Notes under the pieces: generated by a model
What the model was told of the DNA's origin: nothing
Seen by the model: only the letters and a program-made list of their open reading frames with translations
Database searches by the model: none
Assembly (NCBI GenBank): GCA_950295325.1
Contig: OX485803.1
Coordinates: 3,906,001-3,970,000, forward strand
Length of the DNA stretch: 64,000 nt
Direction: 5' to 3'
Origin: Polytrichum commune
Lineage: Eukaryota; Streptophyta; Polytrichopsida; Polytrichales; Polytrichaceae
Position numbers and translations under genes: made by a program
In this document: in pieces, positions 8,919-64,000 of the stretch
How positions within the stretch are numbered: position 1 is the first letter of the stretch
Layout: each line of letters begins with the position of its first letter

Positions 8919-9300
8919 CTCTTCCCCTTTCTCTCCCACTTTCCAGGAGACTTGCAGCTCTATTAGAACGATTCTATATACCCTCCAGTTATTCATTGGC
9001 GTGTACCAGGTCCGTATACCCGGCGATGCTCTTCCCTGTCTTCCCCACCTTCTCTAGAGGGGGCTGCAGCTCCATTTCGAAACGATTCTATATACCCACC
9101 CCCCCGGTTAATCATACGAATGTACCAGGTCGATATACCCGGCGCTGTTCTTCCCTATCCCCCCCTCCTTATTGGGAGGGGGGTCCTGGAGCTCCATTTC
9201 GAAACGATTATATATAACCGCCGGTTATCTTGTTAATGTACCAGGTCAACATACCCGGCGTTGTTCTTCCCTCTCTCCCCCTCCATTTCGAAACGCTGTG
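8919..9300. repeat. ~118-bp tandem repeat in the syntaxin promoter
   Basis: Three imperfect copies (about 8919-9027, 9028-9146 and 9147-9262) and a partial fourth (9263-9300) share CTCTTCCC, CGATTCTATATA, GTACCAGGT and ATACCCGGCG. The array starts about 300 bp upstream of the minus-strand syntaxin start. Each copy carries TATATAG on the minus strand, so it multiplies a TATA-like sequence. Plus-strand open frames across it are by-products of the repeat. Confidence 0.8.
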
Positions 9301-10500: not shown

Positions 10501-13500
10501 AAGATTTTTATTTGTGAGTTAAGTAAGTGAAACAAATAATCTTAGAGAAGGTGGAAGATTACACTGATAGAATACAATGGTTGTTTGTTCAAATTACTTG
10601 GAGCTTACGGACTCAAGGGCATGGTGCCAAAAATTCAATTTTTGAGGAATTAAGGCATTGGTGGTGAAACATTTCCTGATTGGGATGCTACCCGAGTAAA
10701 TCCAATAAATGAAGTATGAGGGTGTGTATATTTTAGAGGATGTTATCCGCATTCCAGAGAAAAAGAATGCAAGTTTAGAGTCGCCACCGATAATATTATA
10801 GGGAGACACTACGGAAGTTAATGCTACTTCATTGGGAGCTTCATCTTTGACAAGTTTGTTTCAACCGCCTTACACGCCTTCGAGAATGAATGTGGCGATG
10901 AAACAACTCGTGTCACAAATGACGCAACTAAGCATTCATCTTCCTCAACTGTGAGCTTTCAGTAATACAAAATGAGATTCAAACAAGGTACAATGTTATG
11001 ATTGTAAGAAAATGGACCATATTTCAAGGGATTATCTATATCGTGATACAACGGGAGGACCTTTGTTAAGACAAGTTATTTTTACGGAGGATAAAAATAA
11101 GTGTCGTGTGAATGTTGTCGAGATTCAAGATGAGATTCGGGGCAAGACAATTGCAGATTTGGAACAACCTTTGCGCAATGAGGTTGATGTAATGGCGGCA
11201 AAACGAATGCAAGAAAAATCACAACCATGAAGTGTAAAGTAAATGAAGGAGATAGCGAAGGACAATGGATCGAATTTTTTTTGAAGAAGACAACTAGGTT
11301 TTTCATAGTATTTTCATTTTTAATATTCTAGAGGATGTGGGAGTTAAGAAAATAAACACTACAATTGAACAACTCGTAGCAATGGTTTCATCGCTTCGTA
11401 AAGAATTGAAGAATAATTTCTGAATATAAGATCTCTCTCATTTCCAAATCTTTGAATAGAATTGTTGTTTAACAAGATAATAATCCAATCATAAATGTTG
11501 GAAGAAATGGCTCTATGTTGAGAGGAATCCTGATAGATCGCGAAGTGAATGTCAATATGATGATTATCCCGGCAATGAGGTATATAGGCCTTGAATTTGA
11601 AAAAACTTCGTTAATTACCTTGAAATGACCAACAAAAATATTTGCAAACCTGAAGATATGATATCTTATGTGTGTATTAATGTGTTAAGAATTTTCACGG
11701 CCGAAAATTTTTATGTGGTTTTAGAAGAACATAGATCATACGTCGGCCGTAGGTTACAAAAACATACATTCAAAATAATTGGGGCAAAGGGTACATGATA
11801 ATTGAGAATTGAAGGAGCCACATCGGCAACGAATTCGGTTTGTTCCACTAGGAGAAACACTAGCTTTAGATAAATCCGACTCTGATTCACTAGAGGCTGA
11901 CAATTCAGATTGAGAAGAATTTTACACAAACAATTATTCAGATAATGAAGTTGGACTTTATGAAATTGAAACAATTCCAAAGGAAAAAATTTCTCCTCAT
12001 AGAAAAATTCTTGCAAAACGAAAAAATGAGAAATCCGGTTTTGTCAAACAATGAGATAGGATGGAGGTTGAATCAAATTTGGTTGGGACAAAATTAATTT
12101 CTCATGAGTGAGAGTATTTTCGCAAACTCTTGACTAATTTATTCATATTTTTGCCTTCAATTACAAGAATTTGTATGAAGTTACCTTAAAGACGCATAAG
12201 ATTAAGCTTGTGCAAACTGCGAATGTCGTAAAGCAAAAATCTTACCGAACGAATCCCAAGTACGCAGAGGTGATGAAAGTTTTGGAAAAATTGCTAGGAA
12301 TAAAATTCATCCGACTCATAAAAAATTGAATAGCTAACTGCAATTATCATGGCTAAAAAAAATTAAAGATTTGTGTGCATTACAAAATATTCAATGATGT
12401 TACAAAGTAGGATCTATATCCCATTCCATTTTGTGATAAAGTTCTTGAGGAAATTGGAAGATACGACTTGTATTCTTTTATGAATGGGTATACTAAATAT
12501 TATCAAGTAAAGATTTCACATGAAGATCAACTGAAGACCACATTCACTTTATCGTGGGGTACATTTTGTTATGAGATAATGTCATTCGGATTTTGTAATG
12601 CCCCAGCTATTTTTCAAAGACTAATACACAAAATTGTCTAACCATACTTTGGACACTTTATGAGAGTATTTATGAATGGCTTTGAAGTCTACAAGGATTA
12701 AACTTCACAATTGAAGAATTGGAGAGTGTTTTAAAACGCTTAGATGTGTCAAAAATCACACTAAACGTAGAAAAAACAAAAATTAGATTTACATTTGGAA
12801 ATTTCGCCGGTCATATCGTCTCGAAAGAGGAAATCAAAATTGATCCGAAGAAGTTGGAAGCAATTTTAGGAGCATCATTTCCTACTACCAAACGTGAGGT
12901 AAGAATGTTTTTGGAAAATACGGGGTATTATCGCTGATTCATTTAGCGGTACGCTATGATCATTAAAGTCTTAAGTAGGTTTTTCAAAGATGATGTGCAT
13001 CCTCAAGAAGCTACACCGGATGCATTACGGGCTTTTGAAAACTAACGCAAGCGTTATTCTCTACACCAAATTTACGAACTCCGAATTTAGAGAAACTATT
13101 ATTACTGTTTATAAATGCATCAAGAAAAGAAGTAGGTATAACGTTAGTGCAGTTGGATGAAGAAAGATACAACCACCCCATCTATTATGGTAGTAGACAA
13201 CTCACGTTGACAAAGATTAATTACACAATTATGGTGTAAGAAAGGTGGGGAGTTATTTTCGTGTTGAAGATATTTCGACATTACTTATAGGGAACGACAA
13301 CAACGGCGATAATAGACTATAAGACATTGGTTTATTTTCTCAACAAACTAAACGCAACAAGAAGAATCGCGCGATGCATCATTGTGGTTCAAAAGACTTA
13401 CAGATTGTACATCGGGCGGATACAATACATGGAATCGTTGATTTTCTTTCATGAATGGAGAACGAGGTGCAAGTTGTTTCCAAAGATGATAATTTTTCCA

Positions 13501-14837: not shown

Positions 14838-17800
14838 TGTTATGGTTAAATTTGTGGATTTATTAGCATTATGAAAAATACATAGAGTTAGAAATTATGT
14901 ATGTTGCTAGGAATTGTCGTAAAATCTATAAGATATTGGTCAAGTATTCATTTTATGCAAATGTCCAAGTTGATAAAACGGCGACAAGGTCTATATCTTA
15001 TCAAATTTACATAATAGAAATTTCAATATTAGTTGTATCTATGATATGATAGATTTATATATCAAATCTATGAGTTTGTAGATTTAAGATATTTCTAGTG
15101 AAACTCCCTAATCCGTAGGAGTAAAAGGCTCTCGGCGAAGAGTTCAACACCTTTTTAAAGTGTTTATGAGAGTGATAGTGTAAGGTAGGACAAACTTAAG
15201 TGTTAGAATTAAGAATGACTGATAATGTGATATATGATAGACTTGAGTATAAGAGTTATGACTAGTATTTGTATTAAGGCCTCGGCCTTGAGGGTTTAAC
15301 AAAGGTGAGAGCTACATTTATTACGAAATCTTTAAGTTGTGATTTTCTGTTTCTTTATGCCATTTGCCTCAAAAGGGTCCGACAAATACTCTTTCATTAT
15401 TAGCAAAAGTATTTTTTTCCATACCAAAATTTTCCACTCTTCTATGTAATCCAGAAGTAATAGCATGCCAATATTCAATGTGAAACTTCCCATCTCATCT
15501 TTTATTGATTCAAAGTCATTGACAACGACTATTTCTATCTATATCAAAATACACCTTAACACATTAACACACAGAATCATGTAGTTATGAAAATGATTAT
15601 CTACTATCAATAAAAAAAAAAACCCGAGACCAAAATGATATTTTTGACAATCATGCATCTTGTTCAAAATCTTTGGTATCTTTTGATGTCAAATACATGG
15701 AAACTCAAGACATTACATTAACCATTTAATCCAATTGGCTTTGAATTGGCCAGGTACATGAGTAGTGGCTATTTTTTGAAGCTTCACCAATGTGAGTTCT
15801 GGTATAGAGTTGGATGTTTAATGTTTATTAATTTGTATCAAAAAAATATTCATAAATCCACAAAACAATCAAATGCATTATAATAATTTTAAAATTGTTT
15901 GCATAAGAATAAACCTTCATCATGAAATCATCTTCATTTGAAAAATCCAATACTGCGAACATCTTATTTTAAAAAAATCTAACTGACCTGACAATCATTG
16001 TTGTAGTTTTGGCTATTATCCTTCACTCTTCTTTCGCAGATTGTTTTTTTTATTAGAGTGTTTTCTTTGTACAACCTAGATGCCTCATCAACAGCAACCA
16101 CCGCCTCTCTCTGAAGATAAAAGTAAAACATCAATAACAATTACTTACTAGGATATCTTTGAATCAAACATAAAAATTAACAAAAATTAAAATTTGTACC
16201 TTATAAACCAAGGTTGCAAACACATTGATCGTCAACGTAGTCATTCATTTTTTTTCTTGCAATTTGCATAGTCTTTAAAGGAAATAAAGTCTTTAAATTC
16301 ATCAAGCTTCAAAATCCCTCTATTGCATATGCAACGGATCTTGTGGGATTAATTGGTTTTCACGTGATCTATCTTAATAGATCCGGAATTGCACATAATA
16401 TATAAATTATCAAAAACTAAATGAAACTAAAATATATATATCAAATAAGATTATGAGGTATGATGGTTATTATTAATTGATTGACATCATTCATAACATG
16501 GAGGAGCACCCCGACTAAACCTTTTGGATCCAGAATAATACAATTTGAATAATACCAACGCTCTTCATCAGAGTGATGGCATTTAATGAGGCGTATTCAT
16601 GTTGTCAATTAATACTTACCCTCCTAAACATGAAGCATTTTGTCCTTGTATTTAAGCAATTTTTTTGTCCTTGTTCAATTCTTTCTCAAAACGATGATTT
16701 GGACGTTGCCAATGTTGATTCCAAAAGCTAACAATTTCATCCATAACATTAAAACAAAAACCATCATTTTTGGCAATCGACACATTCAATATATGATCTC
16801 CTTCCCTATAGCCATTGAAAAATTCAATTTTCAATTATTAAATGTCACCCTCGAGGATTGGTCTAACCAGTTCTAACACTACAAAACGACACAATGGAAC
16901 AAAAATTTATTTCACATGTGGGGTCATGCGGGGTTGGTTGATGATAGAATTAAAATATGTTCTTTTCAGCCTATGGGCATAAAAATCCTCGTCTTCCAAA
17001 ACTTGAAAATCAACATCCACATAACAATGAAAATTTATGAAAAACCAATAGAATTAACTTTGTTGAACTCACATACAAAAAAATTAGACAATGTGTTCAA
17101 AATGTGTTGATCATTATGGATTCAACAGTCAACATGATTGAGCGGAGCCTATATAATGAACTAATGAGCGTGAAAATCTTAAATTCAAGAACAACCAAGA
17201 TATGCACATGAATTTTGTACAATATATGGCTACATGGATACGGGCACAATTTGGATCTACAACCTTGGAAAATTGTCCATATTAGGCACGAGCTGGATTT
17301 GCTAGTTCACCTTGGACTAAGTCCCCATACAACTTGCCATGTATGAACTTTAAATGAAGAGAAAGAGGAAGCTCATCATCCCCCTTCCCTTTCCAAACAA
17401 TATTTTTTGGGGGGAATCTTGCAAGTGCATAATTCTATCAGTTGTGCCTTCAGCAACGAAAGTACAATTGACATGATTATGCACTTGCAGGATTACCACC
17501 TAGTTTTTGTTGGTTGAAGGGGGTGATTAGACCTCCCTCTTCATTTAAAGTTCATACATGGCTAATTATGTTCAACCAAATAGATAACTTATTCTTGACA
17601 TTTAGCTCTAGAATAAAACCACGGGGGGTGCACTTCATTGTCAAGTTGAACACCACGTGCGATAAAACAAAATCTACTTTTTACATAAAGCATCACCAAA
17701 ATGGTTCAAAAGTTTATGATTTTTTTTTCATGAGTAGATATACATAGTATCTATTACATAGTAAAAATTGGTAACCAAATTTGATGATTTGTTTTTTTAA

Positions 17801-51169: not shown

Positions 51170-52397
51170 GGGCCGGTTTACACTACAGTGGAGAAGGCCT
51201 CCGGTCGGTCAAGAATGCTTGGCCAAGACATGGTTATATGAGGCAAATGGTGAATGTGCCGGAGAAGAATTAAAGACAATAAAATATTTCTTAAGGAGTC
51301 TTGACCAGTTGAAGTCTAAACACCTAGAGGAGAAGTTTAGCGGAGAAGTCCACCGGAGAAGTCCACTGGTGAAGAGAAGTTCACCTAATGGTGAAGATTT
51401 TTTGTGATAAAAAACCATAATTCTCTACATTCACATTGTATCAAAAGATTTCAACAAGAATTGTGTTCATAAGAATTGTGTAATATAATGTTCAATTTTA
51501 TTCAAAAGATAATGAAAATTGCCAAATTGCCAATTGTCGAGTTTGGCCCATGTAGGAAATAAATGTCTCCTTGGGTGTTTAAGAATGAAGAGGGGAAAAC
51601 CCATACACATTGGACAAAGCACTACTCTTTGGTATTATTTAAGACATGCTCTCCTCTTAATCATCCTCATCAATTTCTCTCTTCTTATCTTTGATCTTCA
51701 ATCATGGATAATCGAAGAAGAGAGATTTTGTGCTCTCTTATGATCTTTATGGGTTTGAAGTATTTTATCGTTTCAACTATGGCCATACAAAAAACCATCA
51801 TGTATCACCATAATGCTTCAATTACGATGATGGTATATTTTTTGTTTGGGAGCAAGGAGAGGGTGGTGTGGAAATTTGACCGGCCAAGTGGATATGTGTC
51901 ACAATTTCTTCTTGGATCATATAATGCAAAAATGTTCAAAGATCGTGTACGGGTGAGTAAGCCTACTTTTTTTTATTTATGTCATTTGCTTGGACCCATG
52001 TTGAGCAAGAAAGATATAAAATTAAGACTTTGTATTCCAATAGAATGTAGAATTTCTTTGACATTGCATCGGTTGGCAACCGGTGATACTTTGCATACAC
52101 TTGCCGATTTGTATGGTATTTCAAAGTCAAGTGCTTTAATTTTTTATTGAGTTGGGCTTCTCCGGCCTCTTGAGGCCGGACAAGAAACTCCTCCTCCGGA
52201 GAAGCCCAACTCCAAAAAGTGCCGCCATGTAGGCGACCATGTCATTTTATCATCCATGAGAAAAGTTCACCACCATTGTTTTCTTCACCTAGTGTAAACA
52301 CCCACCGGTCAAGAGTTGCATTTTCGACCAATCACAATTGAGAAACGCCCTTTTTTTCATGACCGGTGGACTTCTCCACCGTAGTGTAAACCGGCCC
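51170..52397 (+). mobile_element. PIF/Harbinger-like DNA transposon, nonautonomous, 1,228 bp
   Basis: Terminal inverted repeats begin GGGCCGGTTTACACTAC at both ends, with one mismatch in the next stretch (AGTGGAGAAG versus GGTGGAGAAG). TTA flanks both sides (51,167-51,169 and 52,398-52,400), the 3-bp target duplication typical of PIF/Harbinger. The interior holds a truncated transposase frame. Near 52,155-52,205 an internal palindrome is present (GTTGGGCTTCTCCGG and its inverse), a further sign of rearrangement at the deletion. Confidence 0.88.
51704..52150 (+). pseudogene. Truncated PIF/Harbinger transposase (N-terminal part)
   Basis: A 148-codon frame contains FKDRVRVSKPTFFYLCHLLG, KKDIKLRLCIP, LHRLATGDTLHTLADLYGIS, the helical N-terminal region of HARBI1-like nucleases that precedes the DDE domain. 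It stops directly after ISKSSAL. The catalytic acidic residues are absent, so this copy could only be moved in trans. Confidence 0.8.
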
Positions 52398-52640: not shown

Positions 52641-55600
52641 ATTGGGTATCTTGGAAAAGAAAATAAAAAATTACCATCGGGATGGATCGACATGAATTTA
52701 AGTCCGTCGGGCCTACCTTGTTTGAGAGTCCCCTTAGTACAAGGTACGGCTCCATTAAAATGACAATGTAAGCTCTAAACTAATTAAACTAACCAAAAAG
52801 AAACTTCCGATTAAACTAACCGAAAGAAAGAGTCTATAGTAGTATTGTCAGCCCTAAACCTCCACCCTTAAGCGTCGTAGTCCGGGTGGAAGCCTAAGGT
52901 TCACATGTACTTGATCGACACCACTTAGCCCTTGGGACTTGGCACCCCATGCTCCTGCAACATAAATCTCAACACACAATTTTATTCCAAAAAGGAAACA
53001 AGGCCAAAAGCATTTAGAAATGCTCTCCTCCTCTTGAATATTCCACCCACTTCACTCCTCAAGTCTAACACGCCACTACTTAAGCTTTCACACTTGTCAA
53101 TTTAAGCCTTGGGGGGTTCACTCCCTCTTATATTTTGCATACACGTGCGTTCGGGACCTATTTATTGGGGGGCTATTTACCTTGCAGAAAAGATTATAAG
53201 GTATGGCATTTTTCAAAATAAAGGTGTGATGGTATTTTACATGTAATCCTTTTTCAATATTTAAAAACCCCCTATATTATATGTAAGTTTTTTACAAAAT
53301 TTATGTACAATGAATATATTAGACCCTATTTTTTATCGCACGTTGTTCTACGATTTTTTGCCAGTGAACCCCCCGAGATTTAAACTAACCAAAATAAGGG
53401 TTAAGCTAGCACCGAGTTAAACATTCGGCTTAGCCATCCTCTCCCTACACATTCACTACCCAATTCACACCCAGCTGAGTAAAAACACCTCCTACTAATC
53501 ATCCTCTAAGGGATCCTAGCCTACTGCCCTCCTCCTATACTACCCTTAACCACGGCTTTACCATGTGATCATCTAGCATGTAAGTGCACTTAATAGCTGA
53601 TAATAACTCCTAACACAAAGGTCATTGTTACCTGGCACTAAGCCGTTTTGTTCACCTCTAGCTCAATGAATGTCACCCAATGCCGCACTATGAGCCCGAG
53701 GTTGCTCTGTTTCGGCCAAGTCCAGGAGTGTGTGTATCAACCACTTGAATTCGTCGCCCTCTCCTCCTTACACCGGAATTGAGATTCTATTCGCAGCCTA
53801 CATTGTGGCGGCTAAGAGCCTTGCACCGCTTGAGCATTCACATCCAACACTTACACTAAACCCAAGGTTCCAAACATGCGTTGTCTCCGCCCATGGTAGA
53901 GCAACTGCCTTCGATCGCCTTCCTTTCCTCACCCTGCACTGAAAACCTCTCGGCTTCAAAGATTTCTGCCTCTTGTCACCGCAAATTCAGCTTCCGACCA
54001 TCTCGACACGTCCCTATCATGTGCGGCACCCACTCTTGTACCGTTCCATTCGACCTTGCCGATTGAACTGCAACATCAACTGCCAGCACCTACTCAGACC
54101 CTTTTGCCTCCCAGCCGCGTGCCGAGAAGGCTACTGCCTAACAATGAGACTGCGATACCGAGTTACACATGTGAGAATCACACACCCAAACACTCTATGT
54201 TGCTGAATTCTTCCCCTTCTCATGACCTTCTGAAACAATGCACCAGCTGTGATCCTCACTCGAATGCCTCAGAATCTTTCCGAGATTTCAGAGCGTGCTT
54301 CCGTTCATCACCTTCCCCGATTCATCAGAACCTGAATTCTCCCTGCCAACAACCACTTTGTCACACCAGGCCATTGCCTTATGCTCTTCCCCTTCATTGG
54401 ATGGTGGCATCCTTGATGTTGTCCCTGAATCCAGACCACTTATGCACCCGGCTCTCCTGACTCAAATGCTCATCCGTTTGTGGGCTGTGACCAAACCATT
54501 CGCCTCAGAGAGTCTCCCGACTCCGCATTCAGCCCCTCGAGCGAAGCTCCGATTCCAGCTCATTCCCTTCTGTCTGAGATCCCTGAATGCACACTTGCTA
54601 CATACCCTGGCTACAGATACAAGTTGAGGCTTCAACTTGGCTTCGCATTATCGCTCATCCCGCTCTAGCCACCGAATCTCCGAGCCAACAGGGCTCCGCC
54701 TCCGCCCCGTAGAACTCTCTGTGTGTGTTTTTTTAAAACTGAGAGAGTATGCCTCTCGGCCGAGACCCCCTTCCCTGGATTCGGAAATCCAGCAGTTGCC
54801 TCATCCGAACTTGGGAAGGCCCCCCCTTAAACAAACATTACTCCTACCCTAAACGAACAATTAACATTGGCCTAAGACACTTCAAGCCTAGCATCACTCA
54901 AACTCTAATTAAAACCACTTCACTTTTTTTGGTTTTTCCCTTTTAATTACTATTGATCTCACCACTTTAATTCAACTATAACTAAACTTCTAAGCTTCAA
55001 TCCTATCTAGCTTTTAAACTAACTCAACTAAATGCTAACTTTAATGTTTGAATATGATTTTAAGTTAAGTTTAAATGTGGGCGCATAATTGGGCTCACAA
55101 GTATGATGAGAAGCTTAACACTATATTCGTTAAATTGAGACTTTCTCTAGTCTCAAATTAATATATGGATCAAAGAACTTGAAGAGGCCCGAAACTATAT
55201 TGTCAACAATCTCAATTATATTATATGTTCTAATATCCCAAATCTATGATGTGCGGACATAAGCACATATGGTAGAGCACTCGACACCAACTTCATCAAC
55301 AAAAACACATTGGGTAGAGCACTTCAAACAAGTTTCACCCAAAAATATATATAAAATGATTTCTATTATTAGCATGTTCAATAGAATATAGACATTGCAA
55401 CATACAAAGTGCATGTAATAAATGCATGTTTCTTCATTCGAGAATATAGTCCCAAGCATAATAATAAGATGAACTTCAATTGCAGCTTGAAATATAGTAA
55501 ATGGATATTCATCCAACTCCAAACAATATAGTATTCGTAAGTTCTACCCAAACTCTGCCCCAATTTTGAAGAGCACACATATGTGTAATTTATATTGCTA

Positions 55601-55648
55601 TAATTACGTATTAAACTATAATCATGCTAACACAATCCTACCAACTTC
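52641..55648. other. Unassigned spacer with a C-rich block
   Basis: No domain recognised. The stretch 53,700-54,860 is less AT-rich and pyrimidine-rich on the plus strand, with overlapping open frames up to 134 codons (54,056-54,460) that do not look like protein families I know. It may be an untranslated or LTR-type region. The last few hundred bases are the 3' flank of the minus-strand gene. Confidence 0.35.
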
Positions 55649-58600
55649 TCATTCAACGTGGGTTGCTTCTTCTGCAATCCGAGCAAGGTTGTCTTTTGCA
55701 AAAGTTATGTACTTTTGAGGGATGGACACTGATCCACTATGGTGTTTCCGTGGTTTCCATGCTATGAATATGGAATCTGTATCTACCCAAGATGGACCGT
55801 GCTCAGAATCCACCTTCCACCGAAAGTTAGGGTTTGTATCCCAGCCTGTATAATGCCGAATCACATCTTCATTCCTTGCTGTCGGTCGATAGTACTCCAC
55901 TTGTATTTGTCGAAAATGAGGGCTGGAAGTTACAAAATTGGGATTGGACAAAGCTCTTGCCACCCACACTGGCTTCGCATATGTCTCGTCTCCAGGACGC
56001 AAAATGAGCATATAACCTTCATGACAATCCACTGCAATGCGGAAAGATGGTGGGGGACGACTACTAGCAGGCCCCACGTAATGGTCGTCCACATCAAACT
56101 CCTCTCGAACCTCTCCATTTCCCAAAAGACTAGGCTCTGAAGCTTGTACATCGACTCGTGTTTGTGGCCAAAATCCATGCCTCAAAGTATGAGGGCTATC
56201 TTGGTGGAGGTCTGCCAAGGCGGCACGAACACGTGTCCAATAATGTATCCAACTCCCATAACGATGCCAACATGATCCGCCAACATCCGCTATTTTCAAA
56301 CTCTCCCAATATTGTATGAAGCCTGATATACCTTTCAAAATATCCTCCAAATTCTTCATGGCTATTGGCTTACAAGGCCTAGGCTCCCCATCCGGTAACA
56401 TGGTCTTTCCATCCGCATCCACGCGCCACACAAGAAGACCCTCCGGCGGGCTCCACTCTTGTGACGTGCACAACAACTTGTATTGCATGGCCGGGACACC
56501 ATCGTCACGCATATAGAAGCGGAATTGTTGTGCCTTCGTATGCCCGATCAATCGGTGAGCTCCACTTCGAATATAAGGTTCTATAAATGCCTTGAAGTCT
56601 GGCACCTCCTCAATCATATGGGGGATGACGGGAACGTTCTCCAAATCCATGTACGACTTCATCAATAATGGAATTGTAGGGAAATCCTCCTCCCGCAACT
56701 TCATGCTCCACCGCCCAAAAGATGCATCAATATCATCGTGCGTGTGGCCTACCAATAGGAAGGACACAAAAACCTCCTTGAAAATGCCTTTCGCAACCAA
56801 CAACGACCAATATGCAAATACATATCTGCTTTTATTGTCCTTGGCACAATTGTCCAATTGGACACGCAAAGTTGGAGGCAACTTCTTGGCAATCACGGGT
56901 TCATTGGGTGGCTCGGGCAACGAATGCAAGCATACATCTTTTCCATCCAACACCGCTTCATATAAAGGTGTTGAACCCGTGTTCTCAAATAACAATCCTG
57001 AAGAATAGGCTGGTGGTTTCTCTAAATCACGTAAAAGCCTTGCAAATGATCCTATCGTGTGGTTTGAATCCGCTGGATACAAATCAAGAGCATAATGAGC
57101 AAATTTGACATCACCGTGTCCATGTGCAATCATTCCTGCAATGCCAACCCAACGTGATTAGCATCTATGTATGAATAAACCATTATGAAGGAATCCATGT
57201 TCTCCAGTACATCACGGAATAAAATACAACAACATTTAGGGTATGTCATGACATTGTTTCGAAGTTCACCTGTAACCGATACAGGCAACTTGAAAAACCC
57301 ATCCGTGGCCTTGATTCGATTTGCAAAACATGGGGAGGCTGTTTTGGCATGGTCCATTTTGTCATGGATGACCGTAAGAACCTCCAAGGGCCTGGAGATG
57401 GACAAAGCTCTATTTGTGTAGTAATCATTACGGTGTGCCTCTTGCATGTTTACGTGCTTGAAATAGTTCAATTGATGCGCTGCATATGACTCGGTGCCCA
57501 TCGTGTGTGCATCCCGGAGGCGCTTCAACTTCTCGCAATTAGAGCACCTGGCAAATTTGTCCCCTCGTCTTTTTGTAATGTATTCGCTAAAGTTTTGTTT
57601 CTTGATTGCACTCAATTTTGACAATGAAATTGGCTCCAACCCAATCTTCTCGCCAACTGCATTAACGTCCAACAATATGTCTTTCCATTTTGTGCCTGTG
57701 GGAAGAACTTTCTCCACAACCTTTTCACCGGTTGTGAGTGTGCGTGTTTTGTGCGGCATTGCATCGGCAAGAGGGACAATGATGGTTGCTAGAGTGGCCG
57801 TTGCTTGCCTTGTTGCTTCCCTAGGCTTCTTTAAACCCACGTTACCATGGTGACGGGACCGGCGGCCTTCCTTGGCATAAGCAGCTTGTCTATAAAAGTC
57901 CGATTTCGACACACCGTGAATGGTGTACCATGCCTTACAACACACGTCTATGCTTTCAATGGTGATGACCTTGCGACCCGTCCCATTCACATGTATCGCC
58001 CTATGGACATCAAGTTTTCTTGTGGATCTTAGACGGAAATCTCCAAGCCACATTTCTTCGCGGATGACCTTCAATTTATCCCTTGGAAACAATTGGCAAC
58101 AACGATGCACACAACAATCCTTTGTGGCAACTTCTCTAATGGACTCCTCCCCGAGCAACCTTTGACGTTTACAATCAGTTGCAGACGGAGCAGGACGTGC
58201 CAATGTATCGTACTTTCTTTGACCCTTGCGCGGCCGCATGTTTGATTGCACCTCCTTTTCGATTTGCATGTATCGTTGCTCATGTTCACGCAAGCTAACT
58301 CCATCAATTGTGACATTCCTCAATGGCCACCTGCGGAGGGAGAACCTATGAGTGGGATCCACCTCGGAATGAACGACCGACTCCAATATGACAACCCCAA
58401 CGTCCTCAGTGCCAAGCGGGTTTTCATCAATGCAATCTTGCGGATGGGTGTTACGGCAAATCCCCTCCGCCACAACAACTCCACTATCGTTAAGAAGTAT
58501 CACCTCCAAATTCACCCACGAAGCCCTTGAAAGTCCCGTACATTCAACAATGGGACACTGCGGTACGGAAGACGAAGGTAAATCCAAATGATCTTCATCC

Positions 58601-58713
58601 GCACTGTCAGCCATAGTAGCCTCCCCGACAATGTCTAGGTCATCATCAGATGCAGATGGCCAAGTGGCCATGTCATCAGATGACCAATCCCCTATTTCAC
58701 TAAACCCATCCAT
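55649..58713 (-). CDS. Two-exon gene of the family I recall as DUF7869; transposase-like acidic motifs
   Basis: Exon 1 is 57270-58713 and exon 2 is 55649-57135. The 134-bp intron has a strong donor (ACAG/GTGAAC), acceptor (TTGCAG/GA) and a CTAAT branch site. Joining gives about 976 residues, and the junction reads VSVTG-MIAHGHGD. I start at the ATG opening MDGFSEIGDW; an in-frame ATG 31 codons upstream is possible. The N-terminus is acidic. A Cys-rich patch (CCVHRCC), then VCCKAWYTIHGVS and a CxxC (RCSNCEKL) follow. Three acidic motifs stand out: HDKMDHAKT (D451, D454), VQLDNCAKDNKSRY (D576) and VGHTHDDIDASFG (D615, D616, D618). The spacing resembles an RNase-H-fold nuclease or integrase core, which is my inference. 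Function is not known to me. The frame has no lesion. A minus-strand TATATATG lies about 85 bp upstream (58,793-58,803). I cannot tell a domesticated gene from an active mobile-element gene. Confidence 0.75.
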
Positions 58714-58926
58714 TCTGCCTACACACATGAACATTGAACATTGTCTTAAAATCACAAAAATTGTAGGTTCAAATCGAAGAACAAAAAAACCATCATATAT
58801 AAACAAAATTGCAAATACTCAGTGCTCATACAAGTTCATATGACTGCTATGCCATTGGGCTTGTAAAGGTTTCGGAAGGCCAGTGGCCACACCGGCACCC
58901 AGATCCCAACCACACTTAGAGGCTGG

Positions 58927-59495
58927 GTTTGGGTCGAGCGACCCAAACCTTTTGGGAGGATGGGTTCAGGCTCAATACAGAGAGCACCCACACTTAGGCG
59001 CTGGATTTGGGTCGAGCGACCCAAACCTTCTGGCAGGATGGGTTTAGGCTCACTACAGACAGCATCCACACTTAGGGGCTGGGTTTGGGTCGAGCGACCC
59101 AAACCTTTTGGCAGAATGGGTTTTGGGTCACGACAGGGAGCACCCACACTTAGAGGGCTGGGTTTGGGTCGAGCGACCCAAACCTTTTTGCAGGATGGGT
59201 TCAGGCTCACAACAGTGAGCACCCACAGTGTAGGGCTAGGTTTGGGTCGATCGACCCAAACCATGAGGCAGGATGGGTTCAGGCTCACAACAATGAGCAC
59301 CCACACTGTAGGGCTGGGTTTGGGTCGATCGACCCAAACCATGAGGCAGGATGGGTTCAGGCTCACAACAGTGAGCACCCACACTGTAGGGCTGGGTTTG
59401 GGTCGATCGACCCAAACCTTGAGGCAGGATGGGTTCTGGCTCAATACAGAGAGCACCCACACTGTAAGGCTGGGTTTGGGTCGACCGACCCAAAC
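58927..59495. repeat. Palindrome array A: 78-bp tandem repeat, eight 22-bp palindromes
   Basis: Units start at 58,927, 59,005 and 59,083 and continue at about 78 bp. Each begins with a palindrome of arms GTTTGGGTCG and CGACCCAAAC around two variable bases (AG in four copies, AT in three, AC in the last). The rest of the unit (GGATGGGTTCAGGCTCA, GAGCACCCACACT) varies more than the arms. The array lies 214 bp upstream of the start of the minus-strand two-exon gene. Because 78 is a multiple of 3, both strands stay open through it, but the frames are not genes. Confidence 0.95.
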
Positions 59496-60118
59496 AATTC
59501 CGCAAAATCCACCTATTTATTCGGGTGATGCTCTATTAATCTATTTATAACCTATTTGGGACAACTGAACTCATAGATGCTTGTTGTAATTAGCTGCTCA
59601 TGAATGGAAGCGTATACAAACCGTGTATTACAGCTCCAACTTAGAGAGCTTGCAGCAATCTCAGGATTGGGACATGAAAGAAAGAACCAGCATTTGGGGG
59701 GGGTTGGGCTCTTTATACTACCCGCCTCCGCTTTGGGCATCCTCTTTGGATGCCTTTCCCACCTGGTCTCCTTTGGATGTTAATTCAAACCTTCTGACTC
59801 AATTTCCCGCTTCTTGTCAATAATAGAGAATGTATATTTAGCTTGGCTCTTCGTTGCCCCAACCACCAAATGAATAATTCAACATATATTTAAAGTTGTT
59901 ACCACCCTAACTTGGTCAACACTATTCTTCAACTCTTTCATAATTAGTTTTATACATGAATACACCACCACCTTCCCTATTGCCATCTCCTTTCTCCTTT
60001 TATCATTGTTGTATATTTTTCTCACATCCTTACTAATACTAAATCCCTATATGTAACTTCCATATATCACCATAGTGGATATTTAGTGTTTGAGTTTACA
60101 TTTAATGTTACTTACTCT

Positions 60119-60251
60119 CATAGGGTTAGTAATGGGAAGTGTATGCGTTCGTTTTAAGTGTATCAAACACTAACTATCATATAACTAAAAAGGATATAAA
60201 GGTTTTGATACACTACATATGAACGCATACACTAAATACCAATAACCCTAT
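60119..60251. mobile_element. 133-bp hairpin (MITE-like)
   Basis: CATAGGGTTAGTAATGGGAA and GTGTATGCGTTC on the left pair with the inverted right half ending ACCAATAACCCTATG. Arms are about 50 bp with several mismatches and the loop is short. No coding content. Confidence 0.7.
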
Positions 60252-61066
60252 GACAATATGTAAGATTATATCTATTAAGGGGTTTTACTCTACTTGTAGT
60301 CAAACATTATGGTATATTTCAAACAATATATTGACAAAAGATGTGCATGTATTATAAAACTTCATATACTAAAAGTCACTAAATATAATAGTTAATGCTA
60401 TTATTTAGACTCTCACATGAGGACTTATATTTTGAAAACAAATAATTAATGCCATGACAAACTTGAATAATTTGGCCAACTTTCAATTTCTGCTAATTAA
60501 AAGAACATATGTTGTGTTGTAATGTGTGCACCCAATATTGCTTCATCCTCAAGACTCCAAGTGTGACAATAACCTAGTACCTATGTGGAAGTCATTAATG
60601 GAACCCTAAACCACAAATGACATTTGGCACGTTCAATCTTCCAAGGATGTTTGAACCTATCGTGAAGTCCCTTGAACTCTACCAATGTGTGTGAGCAAAA
60701 CATGCAAAGTTCAAAAGGTATGTCCTCATATCATTCACAACATGAAATCTACTTTAAATTAATATATAATATTTCACTATTCCAAATAACATGTTAACAT
60801 GAACAACATCCTATCCATTATAATCTAGTTCTTATGCTTTTCTTACCAGGTGACAAGGTTATAGGTTAATATTGTATCACCTACTTGTGAGCACAATATC
60901 GTTTATTTCCTTTAGTGCGTTCATTCGTGAAAAACCACACATCCATCTTTCACGTTTGTGAATTAGGATGTTGTGATGACAATATACATTTGTATTGGAA
61001 ACTACAAGCACCAAGGCCCATGTCATTTGACCTATGTGCCATCCAGTTATGGTTTGTGTTGTTTAA

Positions 61067-61098
61067 GGTTTAGGGTTTAGGGTTTAGGGTTTAGGGTT
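61067..61098 (+). repeat. Interstitial plant telomere repeat
   Basis: About 4.5 perfect copies of TTTAGGG stand in otherwise non-telomeric DNA. Such short tracts arise by break repair or act as telo-box promoter elements. It lies about 2.5 kb upstream of the partial gene at the right edge. Confidence 0.95.
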
Positions 61099-61619
61099 CA
61101 GGCATCATCAAACATCAAACTGAATGTTTAAATGACTTCATATGATATGTGAACTCCATGGGGTTGCAGTAGATACATTTGTAATCATTTGTTTCTCCCA
61201 TGTACTTCAAATGTGAACTTCTAAGTACATATATTAATGTTCACTCTAATGCTACTTGTTAGGGTATCCATTAAAGACTAGAGCATTGTCCTCTACCAAC
61301 AACCATCATATAAATTACAATACATAATCCTAAACTGTTAACCATGTGAATGGTTACCATATTTATATTATTGCACCGTGTAATTGCCTTTGTGGATTGC
61401 AATATAATTATGACTTACTCCTCTTAGACTTTGTAACACTCTCATATGATTCCATAAATTACATTATTCATACACCAAAACGATAATGGCTACATTCAAC
61501 GATGTTATCAATTCCAACGGGTGATCATTCAATTGAACACCATTAAAATATGAGTTGGTGATGGTGTTAATTTTGTGGAATACCTTAGTCCACGTAGGTT
61601 TTTGACTGGTATTGAATTG

Positions 61620-62482
61620 CCGCTAATGAATAGCGGGTTAGAAGGCCGGGGCCGGGCGGCCAAGAGAGGCGCCGGCCCTCCTATGTCCCGCACCTAGGGG
61701 CAAGGACAACCAGGAAGGCAATCTCCCTAGGGTGGCAGGTGTCAACACCACAAGCCTCGCGGGCAACCACCTAAACCAAGGAGGTGTCGACACCTGGCAA
61801 GGTGTTGGCCCGCGAGGCTTCTGAGCCGTTGATGGGCCCGGCGCAATCTAATGGCCCGGATTCGAGGGTTTAAGGTGACCCCTTCCGCTCTCTCCTTCTC
61901 TCCCCTCCTCTTTTTTCTTTCTCTCTTTTTCTTCCTCTCTTCCTCCGCGCCAAGCGCCGCTCTTGGAAACGCCGCCGCCGCTTTCCATAGCGCCGCGCCA
62001 AGCGCTTCCTCTCGCACCTTTTGCTTTTGTCTTGGTCGCGCCGCTTCCCTTCATTCTTCTTTCTCCTTCATTCCTCTCCTCCTCTCTGATGCTTCTCCTC
62101 CTCTTCTCTCATTCTATTCCTCGTGTTATTGTCTTCCTCTTCTTATTCTCTCTTCTTGGTCCAGAGTGTTAGCTTTGAGTGAGTTCGGAGCGGTTTATTG
62201 TGTTGAACTCCTTACTTGTTTTGTAAAATTCATGCATGGAGTGATTTTAGGTTGAGTAGAAGTGAGCACGGTCGAGTGTGATAGAAAGGTAGAGGTCTTT
62301 CAAATTAGGCCTGAGTTTGCAAGAATCAGGGGGTTTGTGAGAAAGTTTTAGGGTGCTTGAGAGATTCATTGTGTTTCTGAGATCTTTGTGAGAGTTGTTC
62401 TTTAGTGCCACAACAGAGTTTCTGAGTCTGGTTGTAAGAAGCAGATTGTGAGAGCAGCTTTCAAGAGTTTGAAAGACAAGGT
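61620..62482 (+). promoter_or_regulatory. Probable promoter and untranslated first exon of the right-edge gene
   Basis: A GC-rich block (61,620-61,860) is followed by a pyrimidine-rich leader (61,880-62,160) typical of plant 5' UTRs. At 62,482/62,483 a strong donor reads ACAAG/GTAAGC. The matching acceptor is at 63,600-63,601. I infer a noncoding first exon ending at 62,482 and a 1,119-bp intron. The transcription start is not visible. Confidence 0.5.
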
Positions 62483-62601
62483 AAGCAATTTGCATCAGTG
62501 CACACAATTTGCATCATTCCCTTTAGGTTCCTGTTACATATACAATGCATAAGCATTGTATATGTTGCCCAAGCATTAAACATGCATCTGGAAACACAGT
62601 A

Positions 62602-63573
62602 GTTTGGGGAGACGACCCAAACTCATATTAAAATATAATAAATATTTGAATTGCAGCCTAAAATGAACTAAATGTTTGGATCGTTCGACCCAAACATTGC
62701 AGCCTCTTGTTTGGGTCGAGCGACCCAAACATTGCAGCCTCTTGTTTGGGTCGAGCGACCCAAACATTGGAGCCTCATTATGTTTGGGTCGCTCGACCCA
62801 AACATTACAGGGAGAAGAACTAAACCACATTGTAAAATATAAAAGAACTTTGAAAATTAAGTGAATGTTTGGGTCGTTCGACCCAAACATTGCAGACTGA
62901 AATGACTGGGTTGAGGTACCTAAATTTGCAGCCTAACATGTTTGGGTCGCTCGACCCAAACATTACAGGGAGAAGAACTAAACCACATTGTAAAATATAA
63001 AAGAACTTTGAAAATTAAGTGAATGTTTGGGTCGTTCGACCCAAACATTGCAGTCTGAAATGATTGGGTTGAGCTACCTAAATTTGCAACCTAACATGTT
63101 TCGGTCGGTCGACCCAAACATTACAGGGAGAAGAACTAAAGCACATTGTAAAATAAAAGAGAAATTTGAAAATTAAGTAATTGTTTGGGTCGTTCGACCC
63201 AAACATTGCAGTCTGAAATGAATGGGTTGAGCTACCTAAATTTGCAGCCTAACATATTTGGGTCGCTCGACCCAAACATTACAGGGAGAAGAACTAAACC
63301 ACATTGTAAAATATAAAAGAACTTCCAAAATTAAGTAATTGTTTGGGTCGTTCGACCCAAACATTGCAGTCTGAAATGAATGTGTTGAGATACCTAAATT
63401 TGCAGCCTCATCATGTTTGGGTCGCTCGACCCAAACATTACAGGGTGACCACCTAAACCACACTTTAAAATCTAAAAGATCTTTTAAAACGACTTTGAAA
63501 ATTAAGTAAATGTTTGGGTCAATCCTCCAAATGTTAAATGCACATTGCAATACTTTGGGTCGATCGACCGAAA
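62602..63573. repeat. Palindrome array B inside a probable first intron
   Basis: Twelve perfect or near-perfect copies of the same palindrome as array A (arms GTTTGGGTCG and CGACCCAAAC), plus degraded ones at both ends, span 62,602-63,573. In the regular part a ~158-bp unit carries two palindromes, one with centre CT and one with centre TT, separated by alternating spacers (ATTACAGGGAGAAGAACTAA and ATTGCAGTCTGAAATGA). One copy has centre GT with an arm change. The spacers are unrelated to array A. Confidence 0.93.
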
Positions 63574-63601
63574 CTCACAGTTTCGATTTCTTGGATTGCA
63601 G

Positions 63602-64000
63602 ATGGCCCCTAAAAAGAGACCAGGTGAAAGGTGGTTCATGCTCGCGCCAGACCACCTTTGGCAGGAGTATGAAACTCCACAGGACGATTCTTACGTCCCA
63701 AAAGATGGCGTCGTTTTGGCATGGTCCGTTCAGGTGGTGAAGGCATCCATGTTCAAGCTGCTATTCGTGGTGAAGGTGGGGACCCACGAGCAGCACACCT
63801 GGGCAACGCTGACGGGATGGGAGGTTGCGTCCGTCCAGTCTCTCGGGGACTACGTAGACGTGATACTGGAGAACTCCGCCGTGCAGAACGTCCACATGTT
63901 CATGCACCAGTTCTCCGAGCCCTTCGACCCCCTGTACGCCAAGGAGACTTGCGTCGACCCTGAAACCATAAAACCGGAGGCCATATTCATAGATGGTAGT
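63602..64000 (+). CDS. Unrecognised gene, 5' part only, runs off the window
   Basis: An open frame of 133 codons starts at an ATG directly after a strong acceptor (TTCTTGGATTGCAG) and is still open at the window edge. The protein opens MAPKKRPGERWFMLAPDHL; later it reads THEQHTWATLTGWEV, VHMFMHQFSEPFDPLY and ends AIFIDGS. I do not recognise the family. Third codon positions are strongly G/C from about 63,730 on, unlike the AT-rich surroundings, which supports real coding use and sets it apart from the transposon relics. The frame may also extend upstream through the first exon. Confidence 0.6.
   Translation, partial: MAPKKRPGERWFMLAPDHLWQEYETPQDDSYVPKDGVVLAWSVQVVKASMFKLLFVVKVGTHEQHTWATLTGWEVASVQSLGDYVDVILENSAVQNVHMFMHQFSEPFDPLYAKETCVDPETIKPEAIFIDGS

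Follow-up and report, generated by a model that had tools for sequence, protein, structure and literature searches.

Arrays of a strictly spaced palindrome in large DNA transposons of Polytrichum commune, a probable target of an element-encoded protein

This work concerns a 64,000-nucleotide stretch of Polytrichum commune (assembly GCA_950295325.1, contig OX485803.1, positions 3,906,001 to 3,970,000 of the forward strand), hereafter the window, and the palindrome GTTTGGGTCG-NN-CGACCCAAAC, termed P1, that forms two tandem arrays near its end. P1 is abundant across the genome, keeps a strict spacing between two constrained arms and is located in transposon DNA, mainly outside exons, and different transposon families carry different palindromes. 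P1 is probably bound by a protein that large DNA transposons encode and that acts as a dimer with high sequence specificity; the likeliest binder is the accessory protein of these elements, which would act in a manner similar to VANC of the VANDAL transposons.

Palindrome P1 in the window

A search of the window that allows up to three mismatches returns 21 copies of P1, all within positions 58927-63574, and 16 of these have exact arms. The same search returns no match in 100 dinucleotide shuffles. The copies are distributed over two arrays, with repeat units assigned by Tandem Repeats Finder:

58927..59495, no strand assigned: array A, with 8 P1 palindromes in a 78-bp unit, upstream of the ATG of the putative transposase gene
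62674..63574, no strand assigned: array B, with 13 P1 palindromes, first in a 35-bp unit and then in a ~158-bp double unit

These counts bear out an earlier note on this DNA, made from the sequence alone, which had described about 20 palindromes in two arrays with 78-bp and ~158-bp units and at least five values of the two central bases. Copies with exact arms in arrays A and B have AG, AT, AC, CT or TT at the centre, and GT is found in one window copy with a mismatch in its arms. More exact copies lie just past the end of the window, at window-continued coordinates 64936-65071, 66500-66557, 67805-67895 and 72492. Between arrays A and B, and like them within the transposon described below, the window also holds six head-to-tail GTTTAGG units of a TTTAGGG-type telomere repeat (61061-61102). 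Repeats of this type, together with the intron structure, would by themselves suggest a plant or an alga.

Genome-wide abundance and constraint of P1

The assembly (407.8 Mb in 64 contigs) was searched for the two arms with any 2-bp centre, as the earlier note had proposed, and the same pattern read backwards was used as the control for P1. P1 occurs at 9,231 sites with exact arms and at 13,295 sites with up to two mismatches, and the control returns no site in either case. Exact arms around a centre of 0-1 bp occur at 2 sites in the genome and those around a centre of 3-12 bp at 169 sites; among the matches listed, the latter all belong to one 31-bp repeat with an 11-bp centre (GTTTGGGTCGAGCAAAATGCTCGACCCAAAC). 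The 2-bp spacing of P1 is nearly absolute. A centre this strict points to a dimer of fixed geometry, since a hairpin would accept other loop lengths and a dimer would not. The 31-bp repeat itself is scattered in single copies over contigs C1 and C2, again among the matches listed. A literature search with the P1 arm sequences gave no title on the motif among the matches listed.

A sequence logo generated from 223 P1 sites with up to four mismatches has 20 conserved positions, near-random flanks and a loose centre. The folded centres of the 139 exact sites in the loci used for the logo are AC (45), AA (34), AG (31), AT (21), GC (5), GA (2) and CC (1), counts that are given with no probability because the sites of one array are not independent. 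A pyrimidine-purine step is absent from the centre of all 139 sites and is present in 38 of the 9,231 exact sites genome-wide, every one of them CA/TG; given so few, the idea of a wholly free centre was rejected. In 131 of the 139 sites the centre begins with A or ends with T, which means that one or both half-sites read GTTTGGGTCGA. These counts agree with an ancestral AT centre under a constraint that is relaxed yet still present. Of 171 distinct sites, 66% have a complementary base pair directly outside the arms, versus 35% in shuffles, the former figure being inflated by array descent, and within the arms complementary variation exceeds that of shuffles in one of the ten pairs only.

Arms were compared with spacers in nine array subsets picked by regular spacing, using an ungapped comparison in which small length differences somewhat lower the spacer figures. 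Arms are more alike than spacers in eight of the subsets, and the two are equal in the remaining one. The likeness of arms and spacers, respectively, is 98.6% and 81.3% in array A, 92.9% and 58.6% in locus L027, 93.3% and 45.2% in locus L028 (both diverged type-2 loci, see below), and 95.0% and 93.0% in one half of array B. Diverged copies of the window transposon keep their palindromes in the corresponding introns, with a different unit length and spacer. The same arms also stand beside unrelated spacers in transposons with no detectable similarity, which array expansion or gene conversion does not explain, as it does the likeness within an array.

Gene conversion between copies, which the earlier note had named as the main alternative, accounts for that internal likeness and not for the shared arms. 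The note had also reasoned that simple expansion would suffice if the palindrome were confined to the two arrays and if arms and spacers diverged equally; the 9,231 genomic sites and the greater likeness of the arms in eight of nine subsets run the other way. Its suggestion that the palindrome itself is constrained agrees with the strict spacing, the logo and the comparison with spacers. Of the functions it had listed, a dimeric protein site with a 2-bp spacer appears to be the best reading of the strict centre, the constrained arms and the number of exact sites.

The type-1 transposon

Both window genes that adjoin the arrays are parts of one DNA transposon of ~18 kb, as determined by alignment to a second copy at C1:610757-628840, which measures 18,084 bp from repeat to repeat. 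The window holds the following parts of this type-1 element:

55117..64000, no strand assigned: left part of the type-1 (Sola-like, DUF7869) DNA transposon, which continues past the window to ~72784 with its right part inverted, from the alignment to the second copy
55117..55144, plus strand: left terminal inverted repeat; 31 bases including flank match the inverse of the second copy's right end
55652..58713, minus strand: putative transposase gene with DUF7869, in frames ~58713-57133 and 57157-55652, with a match to Pfam PF25273 in the second frame (E-value (E) 1.1e-42)
62481..63601, plus strand: apparent first intron of the accessory gene, known from sequence alone, with a GTAAGC donor and a TTGCAG acceptor and equal signals in the second copy; it holds array B
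63602..64000, plus strand: start of the first accessory coding exon, labelled ParB/methyltransferase-like; an open reading frame that runs past the window

The earlier note had placed the arrays at two divergent genes, array A upstream of a minus-strand gene and array B filling the first intron of a plus-strand gene. The arrays do adjoin two genes, and array A does lie upstream of an ATG, that of the putative transposase. Both fall within one transposon that begins at 55117; this transposon nature, and the fact that P1 is one of several palindromes, had been missed. Array B is indeed inside one apparent intron, which has its GT donor at 62481 and its AG acceptor at 63600-63601 and is followed by an ATG at 63602, with the correction that an apparently non-coding first exon precedes this intron.

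The two copies have the terminal inverted repeat AACACTATATTCGTTAAATTGAGAC in common and are flanked by 4-bp target duplications, read by eye as GCTT in the window copy (L013) and AAGT in the second copy. The right part of the window copy is inverted along with ~1.8 kb of flank, which turns its target duplication into the reverse complement. Within the transposase gene, the second copy is longer by an insert of ~1.5 kb. The whole first accessory coding exon is 99% identical to that of the second copy and 83-85% identical to those of two diverged copies, which show 75-90% protein identity to the queries.

The second copy contains 40 P1 sites with up to two mismatches, and the two diverged copies contain 26 and 35. 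At the position homologous to array A, the second copy has 17 sites at this threshold versus the 8 copies in the window. Its 40 sites are located upstream of the transposase, in three GT/AG-bordered introns between accessory exons and further downstream, and each of these three introns holds P1 sites in all three type-1 copies. With exon ends set by hand, none of the 101 type-1 sites lies inside a protein-matched exon, and 95 lie outside both these exons and the open frames that continue them past no splice signal; four further sites of the second copy, where the frame continues without a stop beyond a GT donor, were assigned to introns. One diverged copy (c2110) yielded no match to a transposase exon, which leaves its coding part less complete. 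With the 1.5-kb insert excluded, the second copy has 3.8 kb between one end and its nearest P1 site and 2.7 kb between the other end and its nearest site.

Sola2 elements generate 4-bp target duplications, according to the available part of the source (PMC3627910). By analogy, the 4-bp duplication, found in two type-1 copies, and the layout of the element fit a Sola-like assignment; DUF7869 is the only domain matched in the putative transposase, and the papers searched contain no mention of it. Outside the element, a weak HTH_Tnp_4 match (window 51695-52147, plus strand, E 0.02, below the cut-off) is perhaps the relic of another DNA transposon.

Palindromes of other transposon types

Nine P1 loci were sampled from the first 4 Mb of contig C1, and all nine, among the matches listed, are larger transposons: four of type 1 and five of a second type. 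Eight were typed by their own sequence, and one (C1:2154-2160 kb) by neighbouring matches to the type-2 palindrome P2 and to methyltransferase only. Neither a tiny mobile foldback unit nor a recombination site, both of which the earlier note had considered, suits these nine loci, which belong to two types of larger transposon, and a hairpin would not require a centre of fixed length.

Type-2 loci (L021-L024) combine a minus-strand transposase, which looks SWIM-like by eye and has no significant Pfam match, with a plus-strand gene that has a DGNHR motif and a methyltransferase exon. Profile comparison, based on shallow profiles, detects no similarity between the transposase and accessory exons of type 1 and those of type 2. 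P1 is arranged mostly in a 32-bp unit in these elements, in the apparent first accessory intron and between transposase segments.

Type-2 elements also carry P2 (AAACCCTGTGCGTTAACGCACAGGGTTT). A search for its 20-bp core with up to five mismatches returns 100 matches in six of eight type-2 loci and none in three type-1 elements; genome-wide, 1,181 sites are found with up to three mismatches and none in the control. Among the matches listed there are 16 clusters of P2, all on C1, and 15 of these have a type-2 methyltransferase exon no more than 8 kb away, versus a mean of 0.08 under random placement. The sixteenth is within an element split by a 12.3-kb insertion. Complementary variation exceeds that of shuffles in three pairs outside the P2 core, to varying degrees. 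Recurrent palindromes are also present in four (L025-L028) of six diverged type-2 loci. A degenerate relic with stops at 16667-16930 of the window, minus strand, is 41% identical to the type-2 ParB-like exon, and no recurrent palindrome is found around it between 10 and 24 kb.

The 12.3-kb insertion is a third transposon type, with methyltransferase-like exons that are 29-30% identical to those of type 2. P1 and P2 are absent from it, and it holds at least 18 copies or close variants of a further palindrome, P3 (GGTGTCTCGG-NN-CCGAGACACC), which occurs at 292 exact sites in the genome and at none in the control. The type-3 element (C1:462994-475294; L002, L031, L005) has inserted into one of the P1 palindromes of a type-2 array and is flanked by what reads, by eye, as an 11-bp target duplication (CCTGGTTTGGG); a second P1 palindrome of that array is interrupted by a TGTGAG...CTCACA element (about C1:475.4-477.7 kb).

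A blind search, given no motif, was performed on the 6.3 kb upstream of eight further methyltransferase-like exons, which were chosen for differing identity from at least 150 places. A palindrome with a 2-bp centre recurs in six of the eight loci, five times in each of L032, L033 and L038 and twice in each of L034, L037 and L039, and none of nine equally long chunks of window positions 1-58500, controls from one genome region, has a recurring palindrome. The form GTGTCTCGG-NN-CCGAGACAC, found in L032, L037 and L038, is P3; GGTTTCGG-NN-CCGAAACC is found in L033, L034 and L039, and TTGAAGCC-NN-GGCTTCAA in L033. Hairpin-like palindromes with 4-6-nt loops and arms ATATGACT and CATGACTA occur, in tandem or repeated, at 1-1000 of L034 and 1506-1845 of L039, upstream of type-3 relatives.

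Accessory proteins

The type-1 accessory gene has an exon with a DGQH motif, next an exon with a glycine-rich motif and later an exon with an FCP1/NIF-type phosphatase match (Pfam, E 2.6e-15). The DGQH motif, which lies in the first coding exon beyond the end of the window, is one that we take to be ParB-like, with no profile library confirming it; the glycine-rich motif looks methyltransferase-like by eye. In types 2 and 3, the sequence DGNHR is invariant in all six aligned rows. The type-2 exon matches phage DNA methyltransferases (PHROG 67, E 6.4e-5), and its match to Pfam N6_N4_Mtase (E 0.13) is below the cut-off.

In the subset of element exons scanned against Pfam, no match to DUF1985 is found. 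Profile searches of PDB with the element proteins returned nothing useful, and single-sequence structure prediction gave models of low confidence, with a mean predicted local distance difference test (pLDDT) score of 31.8 for the DUF7869 half and 39.2 for the first 133 accessory residues.

Interpretation and alternatives

The proposed mechanism starts from the layout of the elements. P1 sites form tandem arrays in regulatory and mostly non-coding stretches of an element, upstream of the transposase and in accessory introns, and other families have other palindromes, namely P2, P3 and more. The transposons concerned also encode a protein that bears at least one mark of a DNA-modifying domain. 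An accessory protein with ParB-like and DNA-methyltransferase-like features would bind, and perhaps modify, the arrays of its own family. Binding would then activate the genes of the element or protect them against silencing by the host, in the way of VANC in VANDAL elements. The identity of the binder, its dimeric action and the effect on silencing or regulation are what we infer.

Several results weigh against this proposal. The ParB label goes back to a DGxH-type motif, with Pfam matching none of six members and PHROG matching ParB at E 0.38 only, and Pfam ParB_N (PF02195) matches in the genome are confined to contigs C10, C12 and C23, with none in these elements. (These three contigs are suspected to be bacterial sequence in the assembly.) Neither the type-1 accessory protein nor the type-3 exons have a methyltransferase match in Pfam, NCBIfam or PHROGs. 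Shallow profile comparison detects no relation between the type-1 and type-2 accessory proteins, so that a single family recognising P1 in both is hypothetical. The correspondence between palindrome and family is also imperfect: type-2 elements carry both P1 and P2, and in the further loci families and palindromes do not pair off one to one, as the P3-like form is shared by L032, L037 and L038 and another by L033, L034 and L039. No recurrent palindrome is found in type-2 loci L029 and L030 or, in the blind search, in type-3 loci L035 and L036; the 2-bp-centre palindromes of L034, L037 and L039 recur only two times, and the first and last of these loci contain, in addition, hairpin-like repeats whose loops are longer. 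Lastly, each of the three type-1 copies has two sites, homologous between copies, in a frame that is open after the fourth accessory exon; these six of the 101 sites may be coding, and the binding-site reading does not depend on them. The strongest of these doubts are the motif-level ParB label, the lack of detectable relation between the accessory proteins of types 1 and 2 despite their common P1 and the four loci with no recurrent palindrome.

Plant transcription factor sites are usually much shorter than 20 bp, and the near-invariant 20-bp P1 is for this reason an unlikely site for a host transcription or silencing factor, whether one recruited by several transposon families or one directed against them. 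A factor of this kind would explain why P1 is present in two types with no detectable protein similarity and why it is located in introns and upstream of genes. It would have to be joined by further host factors for P2, P3 and the other palindromes, and none of the nine sampled loci, drawn from 9,231 places, is a host gene. We give a still smaller chance to a role like that of TNPA, in which the palindromes assemble a transposition complex or repress a promoter with no anti-silencing. TNPA motifs are likewise repeated, vary from one CACTA element to another and may evolve jointly with the protein, as the available part of the source states (PMC2613891), and array A is near the transposase gene. 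The P1 sites of the second copy are internal and not subterminal, with the nearest at 3.8 kb and 2.7 kb from its ends.

That the palindrome works as an RNA or DNA hairpin, as a source of small RNA, a splicing signal or a recombination hotspot, is improbable. The arms are able to pair and many sites are intronic, in one array two P1 palindromes each contain a nested insertion, and complementary variation is seen in the pair that borders the P1 arms and in two or three of the outer pairs of P2. Loop lengths may vary in hairpins, yet nearly all centres are 2 bp, and mismatches in the P1 arms are mostly uncompensated, one of the ten arm pairs exceeding shuffles. The least probable reading is simple array expansion with gene conversion and no function. 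It has in its favour the similar copies within an array, the change from 8 copies in array A to 17 in the second copy and the two array subsets in which arms and spacers are about equally alike. It is opposed by the recurrence of the arms with unrelated spacers, both in diverged copies and in type-2 elements, by the strict spacing and by the 95 of 101 sites outside open exons.

Beyond the binding site itself, a wider proposal can be put forward tentatively, and we would not bet on it at even odds. At least two superfamilies of giant transposons may have a self-recognition code made of a ParB/methyltransferase-like protein and coevolving, family-specific palindromes in introns and promoter, a palindromic and probably methyltransferase-based counterpart of VANC. 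P1 would then be shared between the two types by exchange of sites or by exploitation of a foreign protein.

Comparison with known systems

Bacterial ParB-parS and type II modification are systems in which palindromic DNA is recognised by a protein that acts on both halves. The transposon genes analysed here differ from bacterial ParB in that none matches the ParB_N model.

CACTA elements resemble the present ones in that an element-encoded protein, TNPA, binds a repeated, element-specific motif that may coevolve with it (PMC2613891, from the available part). The P1 sites differ in being internal and palindromic, and the target duplication here is 4 bp. Membership in CACTA, which would entail a 3-bp duplication and subterminal repeats, was considered and rejected given the 4-bp duplication and the distances of 2.7 and 3.8 kb from the ends.

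Sola1-1_Ec32 is a giant transposon of Ectocarpus with an accessory gene for ParB and DNA methyltransferase on the strand opposite to the transposase, and self-binding or self-modification has been suggested for such genes of algal giant transposons (PMC12477816, in the part available). The elements described here are likewise giant DNA transposons in which transposase and accessory gene lie on opposite strands, and their ParB and methyltransferase domain assignments are weaker. The available part of that source names no target sequence, and its main text uses 'palindrom' 0 times, whereas candidate targets are found here. The palindromes offer specific sequences as candidate targets in several families of a single genome, by which the earlier suggestion becomes directly testable.

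The closest likeness is to the VANDAL elements of Arabidopsis, described here from the available parts of two sources (PMC5735166, PMC10398659). Arrays of VANC motifs lie in the introns of accessory genes and upstream of the transposase (PMC5735166), and the motifs are family-specific, occur in quickly changing tandem repeats and include one common to the unrelated element AT9TSD1 (PMC5735166, PMC10398659). The present elements have the same features: short family-specific motifs in tandem repeats, located in accessory introns and upstream of the transposase, with one motif shared with an unrelated element. Their arrays are family-specific and in non-coding parts, save for the six of 101 possibly coding sites and the presence of P1 in two types. 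They differ in that VANC motifs measure 8-9 bp and are described as arrays of one orientation (PMC5735166, PMC10398659), whereas the motifs here are palindromes of 18-28 bp; words beginning with 'palindrom-' are absent from the main texts of both sources. Type 1 here also has a DUF7869 gene, and no DUF1985 is found in the exons tested. By analogy, we infer that the P1 system is VANC-like in its working. If so, it would represent another kind of sequence-specific self-recognition by transposons beside VANC, and the presence of P1 in both transposon types would illustrate how a code of this kind passes between elements by sharing or theft.

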